Assembly: GCA_032622095.1 (NCBI GenBank)
Contig: CP136064.1
Location: 253,646,484 to 253,710,483 of the forward strand
Direction of reading: 5' to 3'
Length of the DNA stretch: 64,000 nt
Source: Siphonodentalium dalli
Lineage: Eukaryota; Mollusca; Scaphopoda; Gadilida; Siphonodentaliidae
Under the pieces are notes generated by a model. It saw only the letters and a program-made list of their open reading frames with translations. It made no database searches and was not told the origin of the DNA. Positions 15,101 to 64,000 of the stretch are shown here, piece after piece. Position 1 is the first letter of the stretch. Each line of letters begins with the position of its first letter. Position numbers and translations under genes: made by a program.

Positions 15101-18100
15101 TTTTGGTCCGTCTGGTTTCTGTTCATGTCATAACTTGAACAGTAGTGCTCGTATCGCAATGAAATTTGGTACGGATGTTGACTACTACTATGAGAGCATG
15201 CAATAGAGGGTTCCACTGTTTTGTTTTGGTTTTCCATTCTAGAGTTATTCATCTTTGTTTATCTGGAAATGTTGGCTTTTTGGTATATCTTGTGTCTGTT
15301 CATGTCGTAATTTCAACAATTGTGCTGGGATCTCAATGGAATTTGGTATGGATGTTCACTGCTATGAGGACATCAAAAAGAGGGTTCCATCGTTTTGTTT
15401 GAATATTCCATTCTAGAGTTATACATCTTTGTTCATCTGGAAATGTTGACTTTTTGGTCTGTCTGGCTGGTGTCTGTTCATGTTGTAACTTCAACAATTG
15501 TGCTGGGATCTCAATGGAATTCGGTATGGATGTTCACTGCTATGAGGATATTCAATAGGGGGTTCCATTGTTGTGCACCGCTCTTCCTGTCTAGAGTTAT
15601 TCATGTTTGTTCATCTGCAAATGTTGGCTTTTTAGTCCGTCTGGTGTCTGTTCATGTTGTAACTTCAACAATTGTGCTGGGATCTCAATGGAATTCGGTA
15701 TGGATGTTCACTGCTATGAGGACATTCAATAGGGGGTTCCATTGTTCTGTTCCGCTTTTCCATTCTAGAGTTATTCATCTTTGTTTATCAGGAAATGTTG
15801 GTTGTTTGGTCCATCCGATGTCTGTTCAGCTCATAACTTGAACAGTAATGCTCGGAACTCAATGAAATTTTGTATGGATGTTCACCACTATGAGGACATT
15901 TAATGGCACATTTAAAAGTTTGTTTGGTTTTTTGTTCTATAGTTATCTTTGTTTATATGAAAATGCTGATTTCTGGGGCCATATGTCTGAGTATAGCCAT
16001 CATAAGTTATAGATGTGCCCACACTAGGCGGTATGCCACGAGGGGGTATGCTCCGGACGACAGTCCATCTCTTGTTAATAGTCTGTCTGGGTTATTAATT
16101 GTCTGTCTGGGTAATTAATTGTATGTCTGGGTTATTAATTATATATCTGGGTTATTAATTGTTTGTCTGGGTAATTAATTGTCTGTCTGGGTAATTAATT
16201 GTCTGTCTGTGTAATTAATTGTCTGTTTGGGTTATTAATTGTCTGTCTGGGTAATTAATTGTCTGTCTGGGTAATTGTCTGTCTGGGTAATTAATTGTCT
16301 GTCTGGGTAATTAATTGTCTGTCCGGGTAATTAATTGTCTGTCTGTGTAATTCATTGTCTGTCAGGGTAGTTAATTGTCTGTCTGTGTAATTAATTGTCT
16401 GTCTGTGTAATTAATTGTCTGTTTGGGTTATTAATTGTCTGTCTGGGTAATTAATTGTCTGTCTGGGTAATTGTCTGTCTGGGTAATTAATTGTCTGTCT
16501 GGGTAATTAATTGTCTGTCCGGGTAATTAATTGTCTGTCTGTGTAATTCATTGTCTGTCAGGGTAGTTAATTGTCTGTCTGTGTAATTAATTGTCTGTCT
16601 GAATAATTAATTGTCTGTCTGGGTTATTAATTGTCTGTCTGGGTTATTAATTGTCTGCCTGTGTAACTAATAGTCTGTCTGGGTTATTAATTGTATATCT
16701 GGGTTATTAATTGTTTGTCTGGGTAATTAATTGTCTGTCTGGGTAATTAATTGTCTGTCTGTGTAATTAATTGTCTGTTTTGGTTATTAATTGTCTGTCT
16801 GGGTAATTAATTGTATGTCTGGATAATTAATTGTCTGTCTGGGTAATCAATTGTCTGTCTGTGTAATTGTCTGTCTGGGTAATTAATTGTCTGTCTGGGT
16901 TATTAATTGTCTGTCTGTGTTATTAATTGTCTGTCTGGGTTATTAATTGTCTGTCTGGGTAATTAATTGTCTGTCTGTGTAATTGTCTGTCTGGGTAATT
17001 AATTGTCTGTCTGGGTTATTAATTGTCTGTCCGGGTAATTAATTGTCTGTCTGGGTAATTAATTCTCTGTCTGGGTAATTAATTGTCTGTCTGGGTAATT
17101 AATTGTCTGTCTGGGTTATTAATTGTCTGGGTAATTAATTGTCTGTCTGGGTAATTAATTGTCTGTCTGGGTTATTAATTGTCTGTCTGGGTTATTAATT
17201 GTCTGTCTGTGTAATCAATTGTCTGTCTGGGTTATTAATTGTCTGTCTGGGAAATTAATTGACTCTCTGTGTAATTAATTGTCTGTCTGGGAAATTAATT
17301 GCCTGTCTGTGTAATTAATTGTCTGTCTGGGTTATTAATTGTCTGTCTGGGTTATTAATTGTCTGTCTGGGTAATCAATTGTCTGTCTGGGTAATTAATT
17401 GTCTGTCTGGTTAATCAATTGTCTGTGTAATTAATTGTATGTCTTGGTAATTGTCTGTCTGTAATTAATTGTCAGTCTATGTAATTAATTGTCTGTCTGG
17501 GTAATTAATTCTCTGTCTGGGTTATTAATTGTCTGTGTTATTAATTGTCTGTCTGGGTAATCAATTGTCTGTCTGTGTAATTAATTGTCTGTTTGTGTAA
17601 TTTATTGTCTGTCTGGGAAATTAATTGCCTGTCTGGGTTATTAATTGTCTGTCTGGATAATCAATTGTCTGTCTGGGTAATTAATTGTCTGTGTAATTAA
17701 TTGTCTGTCTGGGTAATTGTCTGTCTATGTAATTAATTGTCTGTCTGGTTAATCAATTGTCTGTGTAATTAATTGTCTGTCTGGGTATTTGTCTATCTAT
17801 GTAATTAATTGTCCGTCTGGGTTATTAATTGTCTGTCTGGGTAATCAATTGTCTGTCTGGGTAATTAATTGGCTGTCTGGTTAATCAATTGTCTGTCTGG
17901 GTAATTAATTGTCTGTCTTGGTAATTAATTGTCTGTCCGGGTAATTAATTGTATGTCTGTGGTAATTTAAGTATATGGAAACCAATTGTCTGTCTGGGTA
18001 ATTAATTGTCTGTCTGGGTAATTGTCTGTCCGGGTAATTAATTGTCTGTCTGGGTAATTAATTGTCTGTCTGGGTTATCAATTGTCTGTTTTGGGTAATT

Positions 18101-21700: not shown

Positions 21701-24700
21701 GGTCCGTCTGGTTTCTGTTCATGTCATAACTTGAACAGTAGTGCTCGTATCGCAATGAAATTTGGTACGGATGTTGACTACTACTATGAGAGCATGCAAT
21801 AGAGGGTTCCACTGTTTTGTTTTGGTTTTCCATTCTAGAGTTATTCATCTTTGTTTATCTGGAAATGTTGGCTTTTTGGTATATCTTGTGTCTGTTCATG
21901 TCGTAATTTCAACAATTGTGCTGGGATCTCAATGGAATTTGGTATGGATGTTCACTGCTATGAGGACATCAAAAAGAGGGTTCCATCGTTTTGTTTGAAT
22001 ATTCCATTCTAGAGTTATACATCTTTGTTCATCTGGAAATGTTGACTTTTTGGTCTGTCTGGCTGGTGTCTGTTCATGTTGTAACTTCAACAATTGTGCT
22101 GGGATCTCAATGGAATTCGGTATGGATGTTCACTGCTATGAGGATATTCAATAGGGGGTTCCATTGTTGTGCACCGCTCTTCCTGTCTAGAGTTATTCAT
22201 GTTTGTTCATCTGCAAATGTTGGCTTTTTAGTCCGTCTGGTGTCTGTTCATGTTGTAACTTCAACAATTGTGCTGGGATCTCAATGGAATTCGGTATGGA
22301 TGTTCACTGCTATGAGGACATTCAATAGGGGGTTCCATTGTTCTGTTCCGCTTTTCCATTCTAGAGTTATTCATCTTTGTTTATCAGGAAATGTTGGTTG
22401 TTTGGTCCATCCGATGTCTGTTCAGCTCATAACTTGAACAGTAATGCTCGGAACTCAATGAAATTTTGTATGGATGTTCACCACTATGAGGACATTTAAT
22501 GGCACATTTAAAAGTTTGTTTGGTTTTTTGTTCTATAGTTATCTTTGTTTATATGAAAATGCTGATTTCTGGGGCCATATGTCTGAGTATAGCCATCATA
22601 AGTTATAGATGTGCCCACACTAGGCGGTATGCCACGAGGGGGTATGCTCCGGACGACAGTCCATCTCTTGTTAATAGTCTGTCTGGGTTATTAATTGTCT
22701 GTCTGGGTAATTAATTGTATGTCTGGGTTATTAATTATATATCTGGGTTATTAATTGTTTGTCTGGGTAATTAATTGTCTGTCTGGGTAATTAATTGTCT
22801 GTCTGTGTAATTAATTGTCTGTTTGGGTTATTAATTGTCTGTCTGGGTAATTAATTGTCTGTCTGGGTAATTGTCTGTCTGGGTAATTAATTGTCTGTCT
22901 GGGTAATTAATTGTCTGTCCGGGTAATTAATTGTCTGTCTGTGTAATTCATTGTCTGTCAGGGTAGTTAATTGTCTGTCTGTGTAATTAATTGTCTGTCT
23001 GTGTAATTAATTGTCTGTTTGGGTTATTAATTGTCTGTCTGGGTAATTAATTGTCTGTCTGGGTAATTGTCTGTCTGGGTAATTAATTGTCTGTCTGGGT
23101 AATTAATTGTCTGTCTGGGTAATTAATTGTCTGTCCGGGTAATTAATTGTCTGTCTGTGTAATTCATTGTCTGTCAGGGTAGTTAATTGTCTGTCTGTGT
23201 AATTAATTGTCTGTCTGAATAATTAATTGTCTGTCTGGGTTATTAATTGTCTGTCTGGGTTATTAATTGTCTGCCTGTGTAACTAATAGTCTGTCTGGGT
23301 TATTAATTGTATATCTGGGTTATTAATTGTTTGTCTGGGTAATTAATTGTCTGTCTGGGTAATTAATTGTCTGTCTGTGTAATTAATTGTCTGTTTGGGT
23401 TATTAATTGTCTGTCTGGGTAATTAATTGTATGTCTGGATAATTAATTGTCTGTCTGGGTAATCAATTGTCTGTCTGTGTAATTGTCTGTCTGGGTAATT
23501 AATTGTCTGTCTGGGTTATTAATTGTCTGTCTGTGTTATTAATTGTCTGTCTGGGTTATTAATTGTCTGTCTGGGTAATTAATTGTCTGTCTGTGTAATT
23601 GTCTGTCTGGGTAATTAATTGTCTGTCTGGGTTATTAATTGTCTGTCCGGGTAATTAATTGTCTGTCTGGGTAATTAATTCTCTGTCTGGGTAATTAATT
23701 GTCTGTCTGGGTAATTAATTGTCTGTCTGGGTTATTAATTGTCTGTCTGGGTTATTAATTGTCTGTCTGTGTAATCAATTGTCTGTCTGGGTTATTAATT
23801 GTCTGTCTGGGAAATTAATTGACTCTCTGTGTAATTAATTGTCTGTCTGGGAAATTAATTGCCTGTCTGTGTAATTAATTGTCTGTCTGGGTTATTAATT
23901 GTCTGTCTGGGTTATTAATTGTCTGTCTGGGTAATCAATTGTCTGTCTGGGTAATTAATTGTCTGTCTGGTTAATCAATTGTCTGTGTAATTAATTGTAT
24001 GTCTTGGTAATTGTCTGTCTGTAATTAATTGTCAGTCTATGTAATTAATTGTCTGTCTGGGTAATTAATTCTCTGTCTGGGTTATTAATTGTCTGTGTTA
24101 TTAATTGTCTGTCTGGGTAATCAATTGTCTGTCTGTGTAATTAATTGTCTGTTTGTGTAATTTATTGTCTGTCTGGGAAATTAATTGCCTGTCTGGGTTA
24201 TTAATTGTCTGTCTGGATAATCAATTGTCTGTCTGGGTAATTAATTGTCTGTGTAATTAATTGTCTGTCTGGGTAATTGTCTGTCTATGTAATTAATTGT
24301 CTGTCTGGTTAATCAATTGTCTGTGTAATTAATTGTCTGTCTGGGTATTTGTCTATCTATGTAATTAATTGTCCGTCTGGGTTATTAATTGTCTGTCTGG
24401 GTAATCAATTGTCTGTCTGGGTAATTAATTGGCTGTCTGGTTAATCAATTGTCTGTCTGGGTAATTAATTGTCTGTCTTGGTAATTAATTGTCTGTCCGG
24501 GTAATTAATTGTATGTCTGTGGTAATTTAAGTATATGGAAACCAATTGTCTGTCTGGGTAATTAATTGTCTGTCTGGGTAATTGTCTGTCCGGGTAATTA
24601 ATTGTCTGTCTGGGTAATTAATTGTCTGTCTGGGTTATCAATTGTCTGTTTTGGGTAATTAATTGTCTGTCTGGGTAATTAATTGTCTGTCCGGGCAATT

Positions 24701-56345: not shown

Positions 56346-57114
56346 CCGACAACCGGTATTAAAAATGTTTCGCAATAAATATAGTATTGAATGTTTGATA
56401 CGCATAATGGCTTTTCTTGTATATGTTCAGATTATTGGAACACTGCGAAAAAGACAAATTAAAAAAAATATAACGGTACTTTTTGTTAACAGCATCAGTT
56501 TGCCCTAACAGCATCATAGCAATTCAGCAGGACCCAACCACATCATAGCACGTTAGCAGGACCACTTGACCAGGTGTGTATATGCGGGTAAATAGGTAAT
56601 TTTTATGAGGTACCGGGATTCATATTCCCATGGTAACCAGTTGATAACTGAATATTTGTTAATGGATAGTTATTTGTTTTCAATTGATCGATTTGTAAGG
56701 ATGTCACCCAATAAGTTCAACAAATGTCTTAACTCTTTCTATATACTAAATACTCATTGATGAGTAGTTATCCTTTAGGAAATGTTCTGATTGTGCGTTC
56801 TAAAACAGGTCACAGGTCGTTTGTTGAACATATTATCTAAACATTTCCCTCCAATAAATAGGACTCCTTCTGTACTTCTGTAATCTGCAGTCTGCTTATT
56901 TTTTTCCCTGACCTCTCCAAATGAATAATAGACCATTCCAATATTTACTGATATGGGTGAATTGGAGAATACATTTAGTATAAAGAGTTAATTGTGTTTG
57001 TTGAACTTATTAGTTGAACATCCTTATGAATTAATACAATGGTGTTTCTCTGCCTGTAGTCAGCTTGTATGATCTGAACCGCACAACACCTGAAGAATAG
57101 TACTTCAGTAACAA
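56346..57114. other. No gene seen
   Basis: AT-rich noncoding. AACAGCATCATAGCA-like short repeats occur at 56,490-56,560. Nothing else was recognised. Confidence 0.4.
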
Positions 57115-57458
57115 TGAAGGCGTCTTATTGTCGCCACATATGCGTGTGTCGCCACATATTCGTGTTTTGGGTACCCAGCTTTGGGAATAGGTGTTTTGGA
57201 TACCAGACTGACCTTTGTAGTTTTATGTGATATATGTTGTCGTAAATAGTAAAGTTATATCGCCGAGAAAAAGCAAGTAGTAGTCAGAAATATCAATTTT
57301 GAAGGTTTGTACTCATCCGCCAGTTGATAGCATACGGCATTTCTTGGACAAGTAAGTGTGTGCTCAAAACAATACAGAGGTCAAGCTTGGTACCTAAAAC
57401 ACCTTTTCCTAAAGATGGGTACCTAACACTCCAAAATGTGGCGACAATAACCCCTTCA
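57115..57458. mobile_element. Fold-back MITE
   Basis: GAAGGCGTCTTATTGTCGCCACA at the left pairs with TGTGGCGACAATAACCCCTTC at the right. Inner arms GTGTTTTGGGTACCCAGCTTTGGGAATAGGTGTTTTGG and CTAAAACACCTTTTCC ... GGGTACCTAACACTCCAAAA are also complementary. Length 344 bp, no coding. Confidence 0.75.
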
Positions 57459-58183
57459 GCTTTAGTAACTGAATGGAAGAGTTTATTAAACAGTAAGAGG
57501 GATAGTTGATACTTCGGACTCATATAAGATATATACCAAACAAAAGCGCTTCCATACAGCGTTTACAGCACCAGGTTGTCAACAATTTGAAATTTTCTAG
57601 CCAATTTTGATGAGCTTTAGTCCCAAAATTCGTGGTATATTGAGGTATTAGAAGTAACATAAAAAATGTGAGAAAATAGATGGAATATAAACTTGATATA
57701 AATTAGGGGATAAACATGCTGTCTGTTGTGGATTTGGGACATTTATTTGTGGATTTTACGATGGAAAATGGAGTTTTACTGGCGACACGAGGAGCCATAT
57801 AACAGTAATTTTTCATCGGAAAAACTAGTCGAAACTCTACGGGATAAAGATATCGAATTTTGGACTATATATACGGAAAAGCTATATCATATCACGAATC
57901 TTTAGCTAAGCCCGTAAAGATCACAATCCACCAGTTCAAAACCTGGGAACTTTTTGATGCTGTGACATGGAAGTTATAACATTGAACAAATCCTGCAGGT
58001 AATATATTTCTTTGTTTTTACCTGTTCCTTACTAATGAGTTTCACTGTAGGTGAAGGTTCAAATTCGAATTATCAACTATTTAAGTGACTTTGTGTCCGA
58101 TTATTTTAAGTGAGTTTGTGTACGATTTAGCTCTGTGTCGCTTACAAACATACAATTTCTCCCCCGGGTATATATATATATAT
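57459..58183. other. Flank of the retroelement; paralogous fragments only
   Basis: 57,980-58,035 matches 48,445-48,500, and 58,085-58,170 matches 10-90. A TA dinucleotide tract (58,169-58,184) lies exactly at the truncated 5' end of the retroelement. Confidence 0.6.
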
Positions 58184-58641
58184 ATGTTTGTATTGCTTCT
58201 TACCCAGGTGGCAATTTAGGTCATTTCTGCAACATGGCCCACAAACTGAAATCGAAGCCAGAAAAGACACCTCGACACGTCATCATCAACATTGGCATCA
58301 ACAACCGAGAGGACTGGAAGACAGACAACGACAAAGGCAAAACAGCAGGCACCACAGCTAAAAGCAGGGTAACTAACATGGTTAGTAATTTCCGAAAAGT
58401 TTTTCCTAATGCGACACTTCATTTTCAGGAAATAAATATCTCATTCAGTTTAGATTCTAGGGACCAGGATGTTCTGCGTGCCATTAACAGCCAAGCTCGT
58501 CAGACACAGAACCTCAAGGTCATACAGGCAATACCCCCCCGCGACTTTCACGTGGAGAATGACAACATCCACTGGACATCACAGACGGCGGCGAAAATCT
58601 ACCAAGGCTGGACCAACATCTTTAAAGGTCATTTAAACTAA
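58184..58641 (+). pseudogene. 5'-truncated ORF1 of the Penelope-like element (SGNH-like domain part)
   Basis: Encodes residues 332-483 of the 483-aa ORF1 found complete at 61,803-63,254, here without its start. It keeps the NIGINN block and the DNIHW block of the SGNH-like domain but lacks the nucleophile block. Upstream in-frame codons come from flanking TA-repeat DNA. It ends with the same slippery heptamer and TAA as the intact copy. Confidence 0.85.
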
Positions 58642-61004
58642 TTCCTCAGAAGGGCATCAGCCATGCGGAAAGAGTCGGTCTCGGCACCGAGATAGTCAAT
58701 CTTGTACCCGACCTTTCCCTGAGCGCTGGCGAGAAATCAATACTTAGGTATGGTCTAACCTTTGTTCCTACCCCACCCGATCTCAAAGAAACACCACATG
58801 TTGTTGAGACGGAGGATGGAACATTGGTTTTACCAGACTCTATGTATGCCATGGAAATGAACGGCGGTCCAGCAAGCATGCAATTTAGGGAAGTAACAGC
58901 TATGGCTGATTTCTTTCGCAATTCGACAGGTTTAAAAGATCAATTTAAAGAACCTTCGATATGGACCCCCTCTGATCGCCAGATTGACCACTCCATTCCC
59001 GAGGTCGCTGGCTTAGTCAAAACCGACATCACAAATTTACCAAAATTTCACAACGAGGATAACCTCACTAAAGTTGAAAGAACTGCACTAAAAACTCTTC
59101 GCAGCAATAAAAACATTGTAATCAAACCTTGTGACAAAGGCAGCTCGCTCGTCATCATGTCTAAAGAAAATTACATTCTAGAAGCGACGCGCCAATTAAG
59201 CAACACTAAATATTACAAACCATTGGATGGGCCAATTTGGAAATCCAATGTTTTAAAATTCAATCTCATTCTCAAAAGCTTGCTGGACCAGGACGTTTTA
59301 AAGAAAAAACATGTTCAGTATCTAATTGCAAAACCTGAATCCAATAATAGGACATTTTATTTGCTACCTAAAATACACAAACCTTTGAGCTGTTGGACTA
59401 ATCCATACACACCACCCGGTCGCCCCATCATCAGCGACGTGGCTTCGGAGTCGTACCACATTTCGGAGTTTATTGATTTCTATTTGAAACCAATTGCTAC
59501 CCGCCATCCGAGCTATCTAAAAGACACGGAGGACTTCCTCATTAAATTGTCGAAAATTGAAGTTCCATCTTCTGCTTACCTAATTAGTCTCGACGTGGAA
59601 TCTATGTATACAAATATTGGAATCGATGCCGGATTAAAGTCAATTAAGAATGCATTTGATTTCCACCATGATCCTCATAGACCTGGAGATGAACTACTTC
59701 AATTATTAGAACTTTCTCTTAAAGGGAATGACTTTGAATTTAATGGACGATATTATTTACAGGTCTCCGGCTGCAGTATGGGCAAGAAGTTTAGTCCTAA
59801 TTTTGCCTCAATTTTTGTTGCAGAGTGGGAGAAAGGCGCCCTGGCCAAATCTGATAAACAACCATTAGCCTATTATAGATTCTTGGACGACATATTTATC
59901 ATTTGGACTCATGGTCTGGATGAGTTTAGGGTGTTCTTGGACATCTTGAACAGTCATGACGAATCAATCAAACTCAAAGAATCAATATCGCAAACCAGCA
60001 TTGATTTCCTTGATTTAACAATATTTAAGGGCCCACAATTTACATCATGCAACATTTTAGATACAAAACTTTTTACGAAACCAACGGATTCTCACCAGCT
60101 ACTTCATCGTAAATCTTTCCATCCGCCAAAACTTTTCAATGGATTGATTAAATCTCAAATCATTCGATATCACCGGAACTGCACGAACAGAAGCGACCTA
60201 AATCAAGCTTGTTCAGTGCTTTTCCAGGCTTTACGACCGCGCGGCTACTCTAGTAGATTACTGCGCCAAGTAAAGTCCGAAACTCTCAGAGAATTGAACT
60301 CGTCACGCCATGACCCAACATCGACTGAACCAACAAGGATACGGCACAACCGGCCGGTGTTGGGTAATGGTTCAGCCTCATTTTGTCACAAAAAACGATG
60401 TTACATCAATACAATAGGATATATCAATACTAGTAACACTTTCACCAGCGAACAAACACGCATATCGTATCAAATGCATAGCGAACTTAATTGTGATTCT
60501 AAAAATGTAATTTACTTAATCACATGCAAAAGATGCCGTATACAATATGTTGGACAAACAAAAACCTCTCTCAAAGTTAGAATGTCTAATCATCTTTCCA
60601 GTGTTCGCAAAAAACTCGACATGCAAATTTCCGATCATTTCAACTCATCTAATCATGACATTAAATCCCATTTCAGCTTTCAGCCAATAGAACAGACACC
60701 AATTCTAGCCGACGAAGACCAAACCGATTCAATACGCCTAGAACGCGAAAATCATTGGATGGGCGTACTTAAAACATATCTTCCGTTCGGACTTAACATT
60801 GACTACAAAGGTGTTTCTCGAAATTTCTTGTGCTTTCCTCTGATCTACAATCGTAGAAATGTTGAAATCGCAAACATTTTCAGAAAAAACTTTGCATTAT
60901 TAAACACTAAATTGACCGAGCCTCTCGACAAACGGGTTATTATTGCCTACAAGAAAAATCCCAGTTTGAGAGATATGCTCGTTCGATCTAGACTCAGACC
61001 TTGA
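58626..61004 (+). CDS. Penelope-like reverse transcriptase with GIY-YIG endonuclease (ORF2)
   Basis: Copies element RNA into DNA at nicked chromosomal sites. The frame is open from 58,626. The first ATG is at 58,842, inside what looks like conserved N-terminal sequence (a GLTFVPTP motif lies before it), so entry by frameshift from ORF1 is likely. Counting from 58,824: N-terminal CDKGSSLVI (103-111), RT motif A SLDVES (D257), motif B SMGKKFSP (318-325), motif C FLDDIF (D355, D356), a Cys-containing linker (CHKKRC, 521-526), then GIY-YIG with VIYLI (562-566), YVGQT (575-579), R586 and E640. All catalytic positions are intact and no internal stop is present. The RT plus C-terminal GIY-YIG order identifies an endonuclease-bearing PLE rather than a LINE. 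It is probably translated only as a fusion with ORF1; a truncated copy 1 may lack a promoter of its own. Confidence 0.93.
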   Translation, partial: RSFKLIPQKGISHAERVGLGTEIVNLVPDLSLSAGEKSILRYGLTFVPTPPDLKETPHVVETEDGTLVLPDSMYAMEMNGGPASMQFREVTAMADFFRNSTGLKDQFKEPSIWTPSDRQIDHSIPEVAGLVKTDITNLPKFHNEDNLTKVERTALKTLRSNKNIVIKPCDKGSSLVIMSKENYILEATRQLSNTKYYKPLDGPIWKSNVLKFNLILKSLLDQDVLKKKHVQYLIAKPESNNRTFYLLPKIHKPLSCWTNPYTPPGRPIISDVASESYHISEFIDFYLKPIATRHPSYLKDTEDFLIKLSKIEVPSSAYLISLDVESMYTNIGIDAGLKSIKNAFDFHHDPHRPGDELLQLLELSLKGNDFEFNGRYYLQVSGCSMGKKFSPNFASIFVAEWEKGALAKSDKQPLAYYRFLDDIFIIWTHGLDEFRVFLDILNSHDESIKLKESISQTSIDFLDLTIFKGPQFTSCNILDTKLFTKPTDSHQLLHRKSFHPPKLFNGLIKSQIIRYHRNCTNRSDLNQACSVLFQALRPRGYSSRLLRQVKSETLRELNSSRHDPTSTEPTRIRHNRPVLGNGSASFCHKKRCYINTIGYINTSNTFTSEQTRISYQMHSELNCDSKNVIYLITCKRCRIQYVGQTKTSLKVRMSNHLSSVRKKLDMQISDHFNSSNHDIKSHFSFQPIEQTPILADEDQTDSIRLERENHWMGVLKTYLPFGLNIDYKGVSRNFLCFPLIYNRRNVEIANIFRKNFALLNTKLTEPLDKRVIIAYKKNPSLRDMLVRSRLRP
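58632..58638 (+). promoter_or_regulatory. -1 ribosomal frameshift slippery heptamer (T TTA AAC), copy 1
   Basis: TTTAAAC sits in ORF1 phase as T-TTA-AAC, immediately before the TAA at 58,639. A -1 slip enters the ORF2 frame at CTA ATT CCT. This matches the canonical X XXY YYZ rule. Downstream, small hairpins are possible: GCAT/ATGC at 58,654-58,666 and TCTCG/CGAGA near 58,678-58,691. No strong pseudoknot at the usual 5-9 nt spacing was found by eye. Confidence 0.7.
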
Positions 61005-61080
61005 TTAACACGCAGTTCAATTAGCTTTTAGCTTATGTCAACACCATTATCCTTAGTTTGTGCTCAACACAATATTTTAT

Positions 61081-61262
61081 GTCAATTTCCGACACAACCC
61101 AAGCAAATTTAGCTAGTTCCATCTTTGAATGGCAACAATGCTCAACAAATTATTCAATGTCAATTTCCGACACAACCTAACAAAATTGATGTCAATTTCT
61201 GACACAACCTAACAAAATTTATGTCAATTTCCGACACAACCTAACAAAATTTAGCTAGTTCC
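61081..61262 (+). repeat. 3' UTR minisatellite of the Penelope-like element
   Basis: TGTCAATTTCCGACACAACC followed by TAACAAAATT occurs about four times (61,081; 61,158; 61,191 variant; 61,223), with AAATTTAGCTAGTTCCAT at both edges. It lies between the ORF2 stop and the next ORF1. Confidence 0.85.
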
Positions 61263-61601
61263 ATAGAAATAATTACATAAGAAATCGGATTCCGACCTGT
61301 GCCCGCGCTCTCCACACTTTCAAAATATATATATCGCCTGTGCCAGGGATATCTTTTATTTCTATTTACTTAACACATATGTATTACTGTCTAATTGCGT
61401 ACTGTCACTAGGATTTGGATTAGGGGCTTCCGGAAGCCATTACACAACCCATTAAGAACGCGCGATCTTAAATAAACACGGGCGTCGTGACGGCGCCAAA
61501 CATTTTGTATGCATTGTTTCACTGTTTGTTTTAAACAGGAACATAGCTGTTGACACGTCTCTCGAAACCCTGGAGCACAATGGGAGCTTATCTCACACGG
61601 G

Positions 61602-61609
61602 TATATAAG
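61602..61609 (+). promoter_or_regulatory. TATA-like box of copy 2
   Basis: TATATAAG about 50 bp before the putative leader intron and 195 bp before the ORF1 ATG. A promoter in this inter-copy region would fit the pseudo-LTR arrangement of Penelope-like elements. Motif evidence only. Confidence 0.4.
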
Positions 61610-61622
61610 ATCCATGGAAAAA

Positions 61623-61680
61623 CCTCAACATTCGAACCTAGCTTGCTTCCTGAAGAAGGTAATTCTACCGAAACGTTGAG
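61623..61680 (+). ncRNA. Hammerhead-ribozyme-like fold
   Basis: CCTCAAC (61,623-61,629) pairs with GTTGAGG (61,675-61,681). CTGAAGA (61,650-61,656) matches the CUGANGA core. GGTA/TACC (61,658-61,669) forms stem II with loop ATTC, and GAAA (61,670-61,673) follows. GAA/TTC gives a short stem I after a TTC cleavage-type triplet. Oddities are one extra A after the CUGANGA box and mismatches at the base of stem III. Hammerheads are known in PLE pseudo-LTRs; activity here is inference. Confidence 0.4.
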
Positions 61681-61777
61681 GCAACTTGACAGTGCGCTCC
61701 TAAGTACTTTTTTATTTTATATCTTCGCGTTCCGTTCTTTGTGTATTATATGTTACTAATCATTACCTTTATTCACA
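61659..61777 (+). other. Putative leader intron of the Penelope-like element
   Basis: Donor AAG|GTAATT, branchpoint TACTAAT (61,753-61,759), pyrimidine tract and acceptor TTCACAG (ending 61,777). The intron would be 119 bp. ORF1 starts 25 bp after the acceptor. Penelope itself is known to carry a short intron near its 5' end. If spliced, the donor overlaps stem II of the hammerhead-like fold, so splicing and ribozyme folding would be mutually exclusive. Confidence 0.6.
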
Positions 61778-61802
61778 GCCAAAATTCAAGTCCTGGATCA
61801 AA

Positions 61803-63254
61803 ATGACTCAACCAAAACAACATAAACGTGGAAAAACTAACCGCCCAGAGCGGCAAAAAGACCAGGCTTATTTAGACCATTCAAATCTAGTAAAGTTGCT
61901 ATACAAAATTCTACAACTTTGGCACCATATTAATTTTTTACAGGACCGTTTGGAGAAGAAGGTCCTTCCGAAAGGCTTTTCGGCCATCGTTGAGTCAGGG
62001 CGAAAGAAGACATTCCGACCAGTGCTCCCCTGTGAGGATGTCTTCAATTCGCTTAAAGCGGACGCTTTTCAGTGGGGTTTAAACTCCATGAAAACTTTGG
62101 TAAATTATTATCGGAAAACGGAATCAGAAATTGAAGTCAAGGTTCTTTCGGCTCTTTCTTCTAAAACCCTTGACTTCGACCGAGCACGTGACACGGCATT
62201 AAAATGGGGACTGAAGAATTTTGGCACCAAATTAACCAATGAGACAAAATCAAAGTTCTTGAGCATCTGGGGTAATCTTCAGTCCTCGATAGGTACACGA
62301 GTTGGCGTCCAAACTCATACAAACAAACGTGGTCGGTCACCCTCCCCTCCCCCACTAATCGCTCGCCAGCTTCAATTTCAGGATAGTCCAGGCAGGGATC
62401 AGACAACGTCGTCGTCTGTGAGATCCACACCAAAACGCGTCAAAGCCACACCACAGCCACAGAGACCTGCACCAAAACCACGGACGTCACGCATATCCAC
62501 TCCACCAAATACATCACTTCAAAATTCACCAGCCAAGAAAACAACACCACCAAAGCACATCTCTTCCAGCCCTCCTTCGCCTGTTGGTTCCATTGCTTCG
62601 ATGACATCGCCAGCGATTTCAACATCATCACCATCGTATGCCGAGGTATTATCAACATCACCTAAGGTATCCAAATTTTATAAATTTCGTCAACCTGGCC
62701 CTAAGAAGGATTGGTCCTTCCCTAAACAGATAAAAAACCCTGTTGTTATTTTAGGCTCTTCTAATGTGTCCCGGATCGATGTCGATCCTCCCAAAAATGT
62801 TTGTATTGCTTCTTACCCAGGTGGCAATTTAGGTCATTTCTGCAACATGGCCCACAAACTGAAATCGAAGCCAGAAAAGACACCTCGACACGTCATCATC
62901 AACATTGGCATCAACAACCGAGAGGACTGGAAGACAGACAACGACAAAGGCAAAACAGCAGGCACCACAGCTAAAAGCAGGGTAACTAACATGGTTAGTA
63001 ATTTCCGAAAAGTTTTTCCTAATGCGACACTTCATTTTCAGGAAATAAATATCTCATTCAGTTTAGATTCTAGGGACCAGGATGTTCTGCGTGCCATTAA
63101 CAGCCAAGCTCGTCAGACACAGAACCTCAAGGTCATACAGGCAATACCCCCCCGCGACTTTCACGTGGAGAATGACAACATCCACTGGACATCACAGACG
63201 GCGGCGAAAATCTACCAAGGCTGGACCAACATCTTTAAAGGTCATTTAAACTAA
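61803..63254 (+). CDS. Penelope-like element ORF1: basic/proline-rich protein with SGNH-hydrolase-like domain
   Basis: 483 aa from the ATG just after the putative leader intron. Residues 1-50 are basic and helical. Residues 55-165 form a predicted helical region (WGL repeats at 91 and 135). Residues 176-285 are a Ser/Pro/Thr-rich basic linker. Residues 313-483 read as an SGNH-type fold: block I VILGSSNVSRI (nucleophile candidate S320), G341 in PGGNLGHF, NIGINN (367-372, oxyanion Asn) and D458-x-x-H461. SGNH/esterase ORF1 proteins are established in CR1-type LINEs; I do not know one as standard in PLEs. A role in RNP formation or membrane/lipid contact is inference. A TTTTTTACAG tract at about 61,935-61,944 inside the frame could be a second acceptor. 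ORF1 ends at the slippery heptamer. Confidence 0.85.
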   Translation: MTQPKQHKRGKTNRPERQKDQAYLDHSNLVKLLYKILQLWHHINFLQDRLEKKVLPKGFSAIVESGRKKTFRPVLPCEDVFNSLKADAFQWGLNSMKTLVNYYRKTESEIEVKVLSALSSKTLDFDRARDTALKWGLKNFGTKLTNETKSKFLSIWGNLQSSIGTRVGVQTHTNKRGRSPSPPPLIARQLQFQDSPGRDQTTSSSVRSTPKRVKATPQPQRPAPKPRTSRISTPPNTSLQNSPAKKTTPPKHISSSPPSPVGSIASMTSPAISTSSPSYAEVLSTSPKVSKFYKFRQPGPKKDWSFPKQIKNPVVILGSSNVSRIDVDPPKNVCIASYPGGNLGHFCNMAHKLKSKPEKTPRHVIINIGINNREDWKTDNDKGKTAGTTAKSRVTNMVSNFRKVFPNATLHFQEINISFSLDSRDQDVLRAINSQARQTQNLKVIQAIPPRDFHVENDNIHWTSQTAAKIYQGWTNIFKGHLN

Positions 63255-64000
63255 TTCCTCAGAAGGGCATCAGCCATGCGGAAAGAGTCGGTCTCGGCAC
63301 CGAGATAGTCAATCTTGTACCCGACCTTTCCCTGAGCGCTGGCGAGAAATCAATACTTAGGTATGGTCTAACCTTTGTTCCTACCCCACCCGATCTCAAA
63401 GAAACACCACATGTTGTTGAGACGGAGGATGGAACATTGGTTTTACCAGACTCTATGTATGCCATGGAAATGAACGGCGGTCCAGCAAGCATGCAATTTA
63501 GGGAAGTAACAGCTATGGCTGATTTCTTTCGCAATTCGACAGGTTTAAAAGATCAATTTAAAGAACCTTCGATATGGACCCCCTCTGATCGCCAGATTGA
63601 CCACTCCATTCCCGAGGTCGCTGGCTTAGTCAAAACCGACATCACAAATTTACCAAAATTTCACAACGAGGATAACCTCACTAAAGTTGAAAGAACTGCA
63701 CTAAAAACTCTTCGCAGCAATAAAAACATTGTAATCAAACCTTGTGACAAAGGCAGCTCGCTCGTCATCATGTCTAAAGAAAATTACATTCTAGAAGCGA
63801 CGCGCCAATTAAGCAACACTAAATATTACAAACCATTGGATGGGCCAATTTGGAAATCCAATGTTTTAAAATTCAATCTCATTCTCAAAAGCTTGCTGGA
63901 CCAGGACGTTTTAAAGAAAAAACATGTTCAGTATCTAATTGCAAAACCTGAATCCAATAATAGGACATTTTATTTGCTACCTAAAATACACAAACCTTTG
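63239..64000 (+). CDS. Penelope-like ORF2, copy 2, partial at window end
   Basis: Same frame and sequence as 58,626-59,387 of copy 1, running off the window before RT motif A. No disabling change was noticed in the visible part. The first ATG is again well inside conserved sequence, so frameshift entry is expected. Confidence 0.9.
63245..63251 (+). promoter_or_regulatory. -1 ribosomal frameshift slippery heptamer (T TTA AAC), copy 2
   Basis: Same site as at 58,632, placed at the end of the complete ORF1 and directly followed by TAA (63,252-63,254). This is the copy in which a full-length ORF1-ORF2 product could be made. Confidence 0.7.

Follow-up and report, generated by a model that had tools for sequence, protein, structure and literature searches.

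How the reverse transcriptase of a Penelope-like element is translated is the question raised by the 64,000-nucleotide stretch of Siphonodentalium dalli DNA analyzed here (the window), in which the frame encoding this enzyme opens, with no ATG near its beginning, at the very end of an upstream ORF. Penelope-like retroelements (PLEs) are the third class of eukaryotic retroelement. Judged from its predicted domains, the element is a GIY-YIG-bearing PLE with two ORFs (Table 1), the RVT_1 score of ORF2 being exactly at the cut-off (29.6 vs 29.6 bits). The first-pass annotation had pointed out that both copies in the window share the same slippery heptamer at the end of ORF1. This is true (58,632 and 63,245) but carries no weight: the copies are 4613-bp tandem units, 100% identical, the first of them 5'-truncated, and for that reason we rejected them as independent evidence. 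At least 57 full-length ORF2 copies printing as 100% identical were found in the genome (2.23 Gb, 9 contigs), a lower bound for the window family because only the best candidates were scored. Since copies of this family are practically identical genome-wide, they could not be used to test conservation. So many near-identical full-length copies suggest recent mobility.

Table 1. Positions of the element's features in the window (forward numbering; aa, amino acids; A, B and C are element families described in the text)
Feature	Position	Strand	Basis or remark
ORF1 remainder of the upstream copy, 5'-truncated	58184-58641	+	Tandem repeat comparison
Identical heptamer TTTAAAC in the upstream 5'-truncated tandem copy	58632-58638	+	Letter match
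Complete ORF2 of the upstream copy, 792 aa	58626-61004	+	Open frame with RT and GIY-YIG domains
Reverse transcriptase domain, residues 308-444 of the ORF2 frame	59547-59957	+	Pfam RVT_1, E 7.2e-07
GIY-YIG endonuclease domain, residues 627-714	60504-60767	+	Pfam, E 1.9e-08, over cut-off
Three 32-bp repeats in the spacer from one unit's ORF2 to the following unit's ORF1	61157-61253	+	
ORF1, 483 aa	61803-63254	+	N-terminal domain and proline/serine-rich linker, followed by a probable SGNH/GDSL-like domain at the C-terminus; TAA as stop
ORF1 residues 291-483, modeled SGNH-like stretch	62673-63251	+	AlphaFold model (pLDDT 48), Foldseek
ORF2 (RT + GIY-YIG), window copy	63239-64000, past window end	+	-1 frame, no ATG before residue 73
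-1 slippery heptamer T TTA AAC in ORF1 phase	63245-63251	+	Kept in families A, B and C
TAA stop of ORF1, flush against the heptamer	63252-63254	+	Kept in A, B and C
TTCCTCAG, possible splice acceptor with its end at 63262	63255-63262	+	In A and B, absent from C

ORF1 starts with the ATG at 61803, and positions 63243 to 63254 read CAT TTA AAC TAA in its frame, which places T TTA AAC in phase. The claim that ORF1 ends with an in-phase canonical heptamer abutting its stop is thus correct letter for letter (63245-63254). The claims that ORF2 is exactly the -1 frame, open across the junction, and that it lacks an ATG before conserved N-terminal sequence also stood: the -1 frame reads TCA TTT AAA CTA ATT and continues as ORF2, and the first ATG, at residue 73, lies inside the conserved N-terminal part in family A, the family of the window. 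An ATG located 21 bases past the ORF1 stop belongs to the ORF1 frame. The -1 frame is closed upstream by a TAA at 63236-63238, three codons before the heptamer, which leaves ribosomes translating ORF1 a 16-base overlap as their only place to enter ORF2. Readthrough of the UAA was rejected because the ORF1 frame of the window copy meets a TAG after 17 further codons. Across the ORF1s of families A, B and C (1392 codons), canonical heptamers are in phase 11 times when the three junction sites are counted, about 0.8% per codon, and the chance of finding one in the window overlap, with its three or four possible places, is about 3%. Taken alone, the heptamer of the window copy is only suggestive when set against chance. 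Within the same ORF1, a second in-phase TTTAAAC lies at 62078-62084 (codon 92) and an in-phase TTTTTTA at about 61934 (codon 44), neither with a heptamer listed at this codon in B and C; hence the heptamer word by itself is insufficient.

The reading that we favor, with a probability of roughly 0.85, is that programmed -1 frameshifting on U UUA AAC joins ORF1 to ORF2. Most ribosomes would terminate at the UAA. A minority, with UUA in the P site and AAC in the A site, would slip one base back on U UUA AAC, the tRNAs would re-pair with UUU AAA and reading would continue into ORF2. The predicted product is a fusion of about 1271 amino acids (483 from ORF1 and 788 from ORF2) that would link the N-terminal domain and the esterase of ORF1 to the reverse transcriptase and the endonuclease. 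We infer from the sequence both the shift and its frequency, as well as the role of the fusion as the working reverse transcriptase. In the part of a recoding review that was covered (PMC5009743), U_UUA_AAC, the site of infectious bronchitis virus (IBV), ranks among the shiftiest words on mammalian ribosomes.

Diverged relatives of the element provided the evidence that its identical copies could not. A GIY-YIG profile search of the genome was followed by scoring of 150 of the 796 candidates, from which 20 loci were chosen and fetched. Three of these belonged to another clade, four were without junction DNA and 13 had junction DNA of the clade with the esterase-bearing ORF1. The families with this kind of ORF1 are A, B (L009 and L010) and C (L001, L004, L006 and others). 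Their ORF1 proteins are 52% identical between A and B and about 35% identical in the A-C and B-C comparisons, while the ORF2 proteins are 68.5% identical between A and B and 49.9% and 49.2% in the A-C and B-C pairs. Four-fold sites are 42% identical between A and B and 21-34% in the comparisons with C, which is near chance. In spite of these near-saturated four-fold sites, the in-phase heptamer, the flush UAA and the -1 relation are all kept: A, B and C carry the same TTTAAACTAA at their junctions, with ORF2 in the -1 frame each time. The decamer was retained by 12 of the 13 junction-bearing loci, the sole exception being a broken C copy, L003, which reads TTTAAAATAA, another slippery word (T TTA AAA TAA). 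The first-pass annotation had proposed aligning related PLE copies for TTTAAAC and the frame relation, and both proved to be conserved in this alignment. The residues alignable among the three families begin at the heptamer, with F-K-L. Given the Leu-Asn pair, T TTA AAC is expected at 0.017 to 0.030 per family. On this comparison the conservation of the heptamer across diverged families is much more than chance, and the site is conserved beyond protein constraint. The decamer of A, B and C counts as one inherited trait, since the three families form one clade. Two codon-restricted patterns for further families of the esterase clade gave no match and a third gave 93 matches with nearly identical letters of the family C type; families using other codons escape all three patterns, and further members of the clade may therefore exist beside A, B and C. 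All comparisons were made within one genome, and searches for relatives among viral contigs and other genome contigs confirmed none.

The same junction could also be read as a splicing signal. An intron would fuse ORF1 to ORF2 in frame, CTAATTCCTCAG would supply its branch point together with the 3' splice site, and the heptamer would be a by-product, an explanation that we consider improbable. The heptamer of family A does overlap a passable 3' splice site. A and B share 20 letters at the junction, TTTAAACTAATTCCTCAGAA, and both have a YAG with 9 pyrimidines of 14 that ends 18 bases past the start of the heptamer, from where ORF2 continues in phase 0. As for donors, scored with a rough matrix, phase-0 donor-like sites lie at 62982 and 62994 in family A, and splicing from them would remove the last part of the esterase; C has a phase-0 donor-like GTAAGT (L006, position 1313) at the codon that, by our reading, is homologous to 62982. 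A transcribed Penelope copy with an intron is reported in the passages covered of PMC3846280. However, no acceptor in C passes the filter, and the C copy L001 has no CAG; no phase-0 donor in B passes it either, so that both signals are present only in A. What A, B and C have in common is the decamer, not the acceptor. A 22-base intron from the GT at 63241 to the AG at 63262 was rejected for giving the wrong frame.

The frameshift reading received further support from the other clade, whose ORF1s are of a different kind: by hhalign, the ORF1s resembling that of family D have no detectable homology to the esterase ORF1s or to the N-terminus of a third clade, K. In family D (L007, L008 and L016) ORF1 overlaps ORF2 by 163 bases in the -1 relation and contains an in-phase TTTTTTA; U UUU UUA is the frameshift word of HIV-1. 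ORF2 protein searches with D, H and I gave 62, 143 and 152 matches, respectively, and led to further families. The sample comprised 17 longer pieces (L021 to L037) and 40 junction pieces around matches near the ORF2 start. It was chosen by hand and is not exhaustive, and the heptamer played no part in the choice. After leaving out L030 and L034, which had no usable anchor, and adding the three D loci, 58 junctions were compared. A script found an in-phase TTTTTTA in 42 of them, and six more (L037, L049, L052, L068, L070 and L072) have TTTTTTA in their letters at the homologous site, an indel or a misplaced anchor having broken the phase count. In total, 48 of the 58 copies (42 by script and six by eye), from eight of nine families, have the word at this site, although copies within a family are related and not independent. 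By families, grouped by eye, the counts are D 4/4, E 8/8, F 12/13, G 3/3, H 8/11, I 6/8, J 5/6, M 2/2 and N 0/3. Among the ten copies in which the heptamer is missing from the site, one of family N reads TTTTTTG, L029 has TTTTTTT in a shortened stretch, and L022 and L023 are each one letter off TTTTTTA and keep long ORF2 frames, each with one internal stop. Codon bias does not explain the word, since TTT accounts for just 43% of the Phe codons in seven ORF2s of this clade; given Phe-Phe-Arg, the expectation for TTT TTT AGR is about 0.084. Transcriptional slippage would also be conceivable on a run of T, but hardly on TTTAAAC. In both clades, ORF2 was in the -1 frame at all 14 loci where the ORF1 end overlaps it (nine families, A to I), these loci having been hand-picked from 40 fetched loci plus the window with broken ends and near-copies left out. 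The proposal that a PLE may express its reverse transcriptase by -1 frameshifting is thus supported by the diverged families A, B and C and by a second clade with its own heptamer. As a separate observation, GCCAG starts 7 bases after the heptamer in families E (L021), F (L027), G (L033) and J (L036), possibly another motif at the nucleotide level, located where both frames are read.

Two other ways to account for ORF2 fare worse with these data. A new start, whether by reinitiation after termination at the UAA, through internal entry of ribosomes or at a near-cognate codon, is even less probable than splicing. It would suit the stop adjoining the ORF2 frame, and some non-LTR elements use reinitiation. 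Nevertheless, the first ORF2 ATG of family A is only at residue 73, and the ATG 21 bases past the stop would be read in the frame of ORF1. C has AAT in place of the near-cognate ATT seen in A and B, and the slippery word itself is what has been conserved. Reinitiation moreover does not fit the second clade, where the heptamer is 54 to 108 bases upstream of the ORF1 stop. That the heptamer is a chance match held by two-frame protein constraint, with ORF2 expressed otherwise or the elements dead, is very unlikely, because, for all that in-phase canonical heptamers are not rare (the 11 noted above), the synonymous freedom seen elsewhere is unused at the heptamer in three families, two different canonical words occupy the point of hand-over in the two clades, and the apparent recent mobility of the window family speaks against dead elements.

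Concerning the RNA downstream of the site, a stimulatory 3' hairpin or pseudoknot is usual, though not universal, at -1 frameshift sites. No stable hairpin was found at the usual spacing, +5 to +54, at 12 sites (z from -1.35 to +1.54). The lowest folding z-score, -2.36 for 110 bases in family B, has no counterpart in A (-0.80) or C (-1.16). In a crude scan for H-type pseudoknots, none of seven sites scored above the best of its own 12 shuffles: no pseudoknot came up for A, E or G, and the scores of B, C, D and F exceeded only the shuffle mean. The consensus fold of A, B and C was weak, with two-sided changes in 4 of 20 pairs and an unfavorable covariation term. The weak point that the first-pass annotation had named, the absence of an obvious pseudoknot at normal spacing, therefore stands after folding, pseudoknot scan and consensus fold, all unconvincing. 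With no convincing structure found downstream, efficiency may be low or another stimulator may be needed. A stop flush against the frameshift site has viral precedents, e.g. in equine arteritis virus and barley yellow dwarf virus.

Clade K differs in layout. The four uncut pieces of eight (L082, L083, L085 and L087) have a single frame with an N-terminal ATG 146 to 149 residues ahead of the conserved NLS block; the open frames measure 877 to 901 amino acids, two of them with one TAA inside the match. We read this as a different layout and not as a refutation of frameshifting. When the K N-terminus was compared with the esterase ORF1s by hhalign, ORF1 columns 28-76 aligned on K columns 13-59 (P 0.0006, probability 29%), a score reached by none of 200 column shuffles. 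This is a weak hint that the frameshift may re-join to the reverse transcriptase a domain that single-ORF PLEs carry in frame. In a maximum-likelihood tree of 13 ORF2s, each of the three groups lies on one side of a well-supported branch; the tree is unrooted and holds only elements of this genome, with J 34% filled, and one and two origins of frameshifting are indistinguishable in it. More tentatively, and with somewhat less than even odds, a gag-pol-like -1 frameshift may have arisen in PLEs on at least two occasions, as U UUA AAC with a flush UAA in the esterase-bearing elements and as U UUU UUA with unrelated ORF1s. In that scenario the esterase clade would dispense with a pseudoknot, the flush stop, through slow termination in the A site, would act as stimulator, and the N-terminal domain of single-ORF PLEs would be re-joined to the reverse transcriptase. 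In another part of ORF2, the stretch HFSFQPIEQT (60669-60698) is identical in A, B and C despite the approximately 50% ORF2 identity between A and C.

The C-terminal domain of ORF1 is probably an SGNH esterase, according to a low-confidence model. Residues 291-483 contain GSSN, YPGG, NIGIN and DNIHW, which we take to be motifs of an SGNH-like domain. The Pfam Lipase_GDSL_2 match of the family A ORF1 is below cut-off (E 0.012), as is the GDSL lipase match of family C, and the family B ORF1 gave no Pfam GDSL lipase match. A PDB sequence search with ORF1 returned nothing (best E 0.5). The single-sequence AlphaFold model of residues 291-483 was poor (pLDDT 48), and Foldseek found 37 matches for it at E up to 0.001. 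The best of these are mostly esterases and acetyltransferases of the SGNH/GDSL type; at least one of the 37, 4mso, is not.

The combination of features departs from the PLE layouts described so far in the sources covered. In the passages covered of PMC11167929 and PMC3846280, PLEs have a reverse transcriptase with a C-terminal GIY-YIG and tandem partial copies, and canonical GIY-YIG PLEs are single-ORF elements. The element analyzed here is like these endonuclease-containing PLEs of the Penelope/Poseidon type in its domains and tandem partial copies, but it has two ORFs joined by a -1 site; clade K has their single-ORF layout. The part of PMC6431247 covered describes PLEs with either one ORF with reverse transcriptase and endonuclease or two ORFs without endonuclease, whereas this element has two ORFs with an endonuclease. 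Esterases in Neptune-like PLEs of fish and mollusks are mentioned in the relevant passage of PMC5408684 (its source, Arkhipova 2006); an esterase accompanies the PLE in both cases, likened here by description only, and that passage is silent on how the ORFs join. Passages of the same paper place an SGNH esterase ORF1 in CR1/L2/RTEX non-LTR elements, where the esterase likewise occupies a gag-like place upstream of the reverse transcriptase, but the reverse transcriptase class differs and the likeness is one of position only. With retroviral gag-pol and coronaviral -1 frameshifting the site shares the canonical X XXY YYZ in phase, U UUA AAC being the IBV word in the part covered of PMC5009743; unlike those viral systems, it has no convincing 3' pseudoknot or stem-loop and its host is a Penelope-like element. 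In the open-licence literature, covered mostly as titles and abstract openings and with subscription papers largely outside it, we found no report of frameshifting in PLEs, and Penelope is not mentioned in the part covered of the recoding review PMC5009743. The junction would thus represent a known recoding device in a retroelement class for which we found no record of it.

If this holds, PLEs may need a fixed ratio of ORF1 to ORF1-RT protein. In retroviruses and many LTR elements, it is frameshifting that determines how much polymerase is made relative to structural protein; in PLEs, whose life cycle is poorly known, a fixed ratio would suggest assembly into a particle-like structure or an RNP. 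Annotations that demand an ATG-started single ORF would miss the N-terminal part of the protein in such PLEs. Two words in two clades offer natural replicates, and the site is short.

Three other features of the window were recorded. The hammerhead motif is common, though not universal, in endonuclease-bearing PLEs; no Rfam hammerhead match was obtained up to E 1 in 57000-64000, the only match there being MIR821, far below its gathering score, overlapped by an imperfect inverted repeat at 57125-57450 (arms of 25 nt, 84% complementary, 276 bases apart). Both the Mab-21 nucleotidyltransferase domain (E 1.4e-06) and the Mab-21_C domain (E 1.4e-12) score above cut-off in a single open frame of 658 amino acids at 912-2888, whose predicted product is a Mab-21-like protein. 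Finally, identical open frames of 157 amino acids at 15368-15841 and 21964-22437, 6596 bp apart, mark a duplicated segment.
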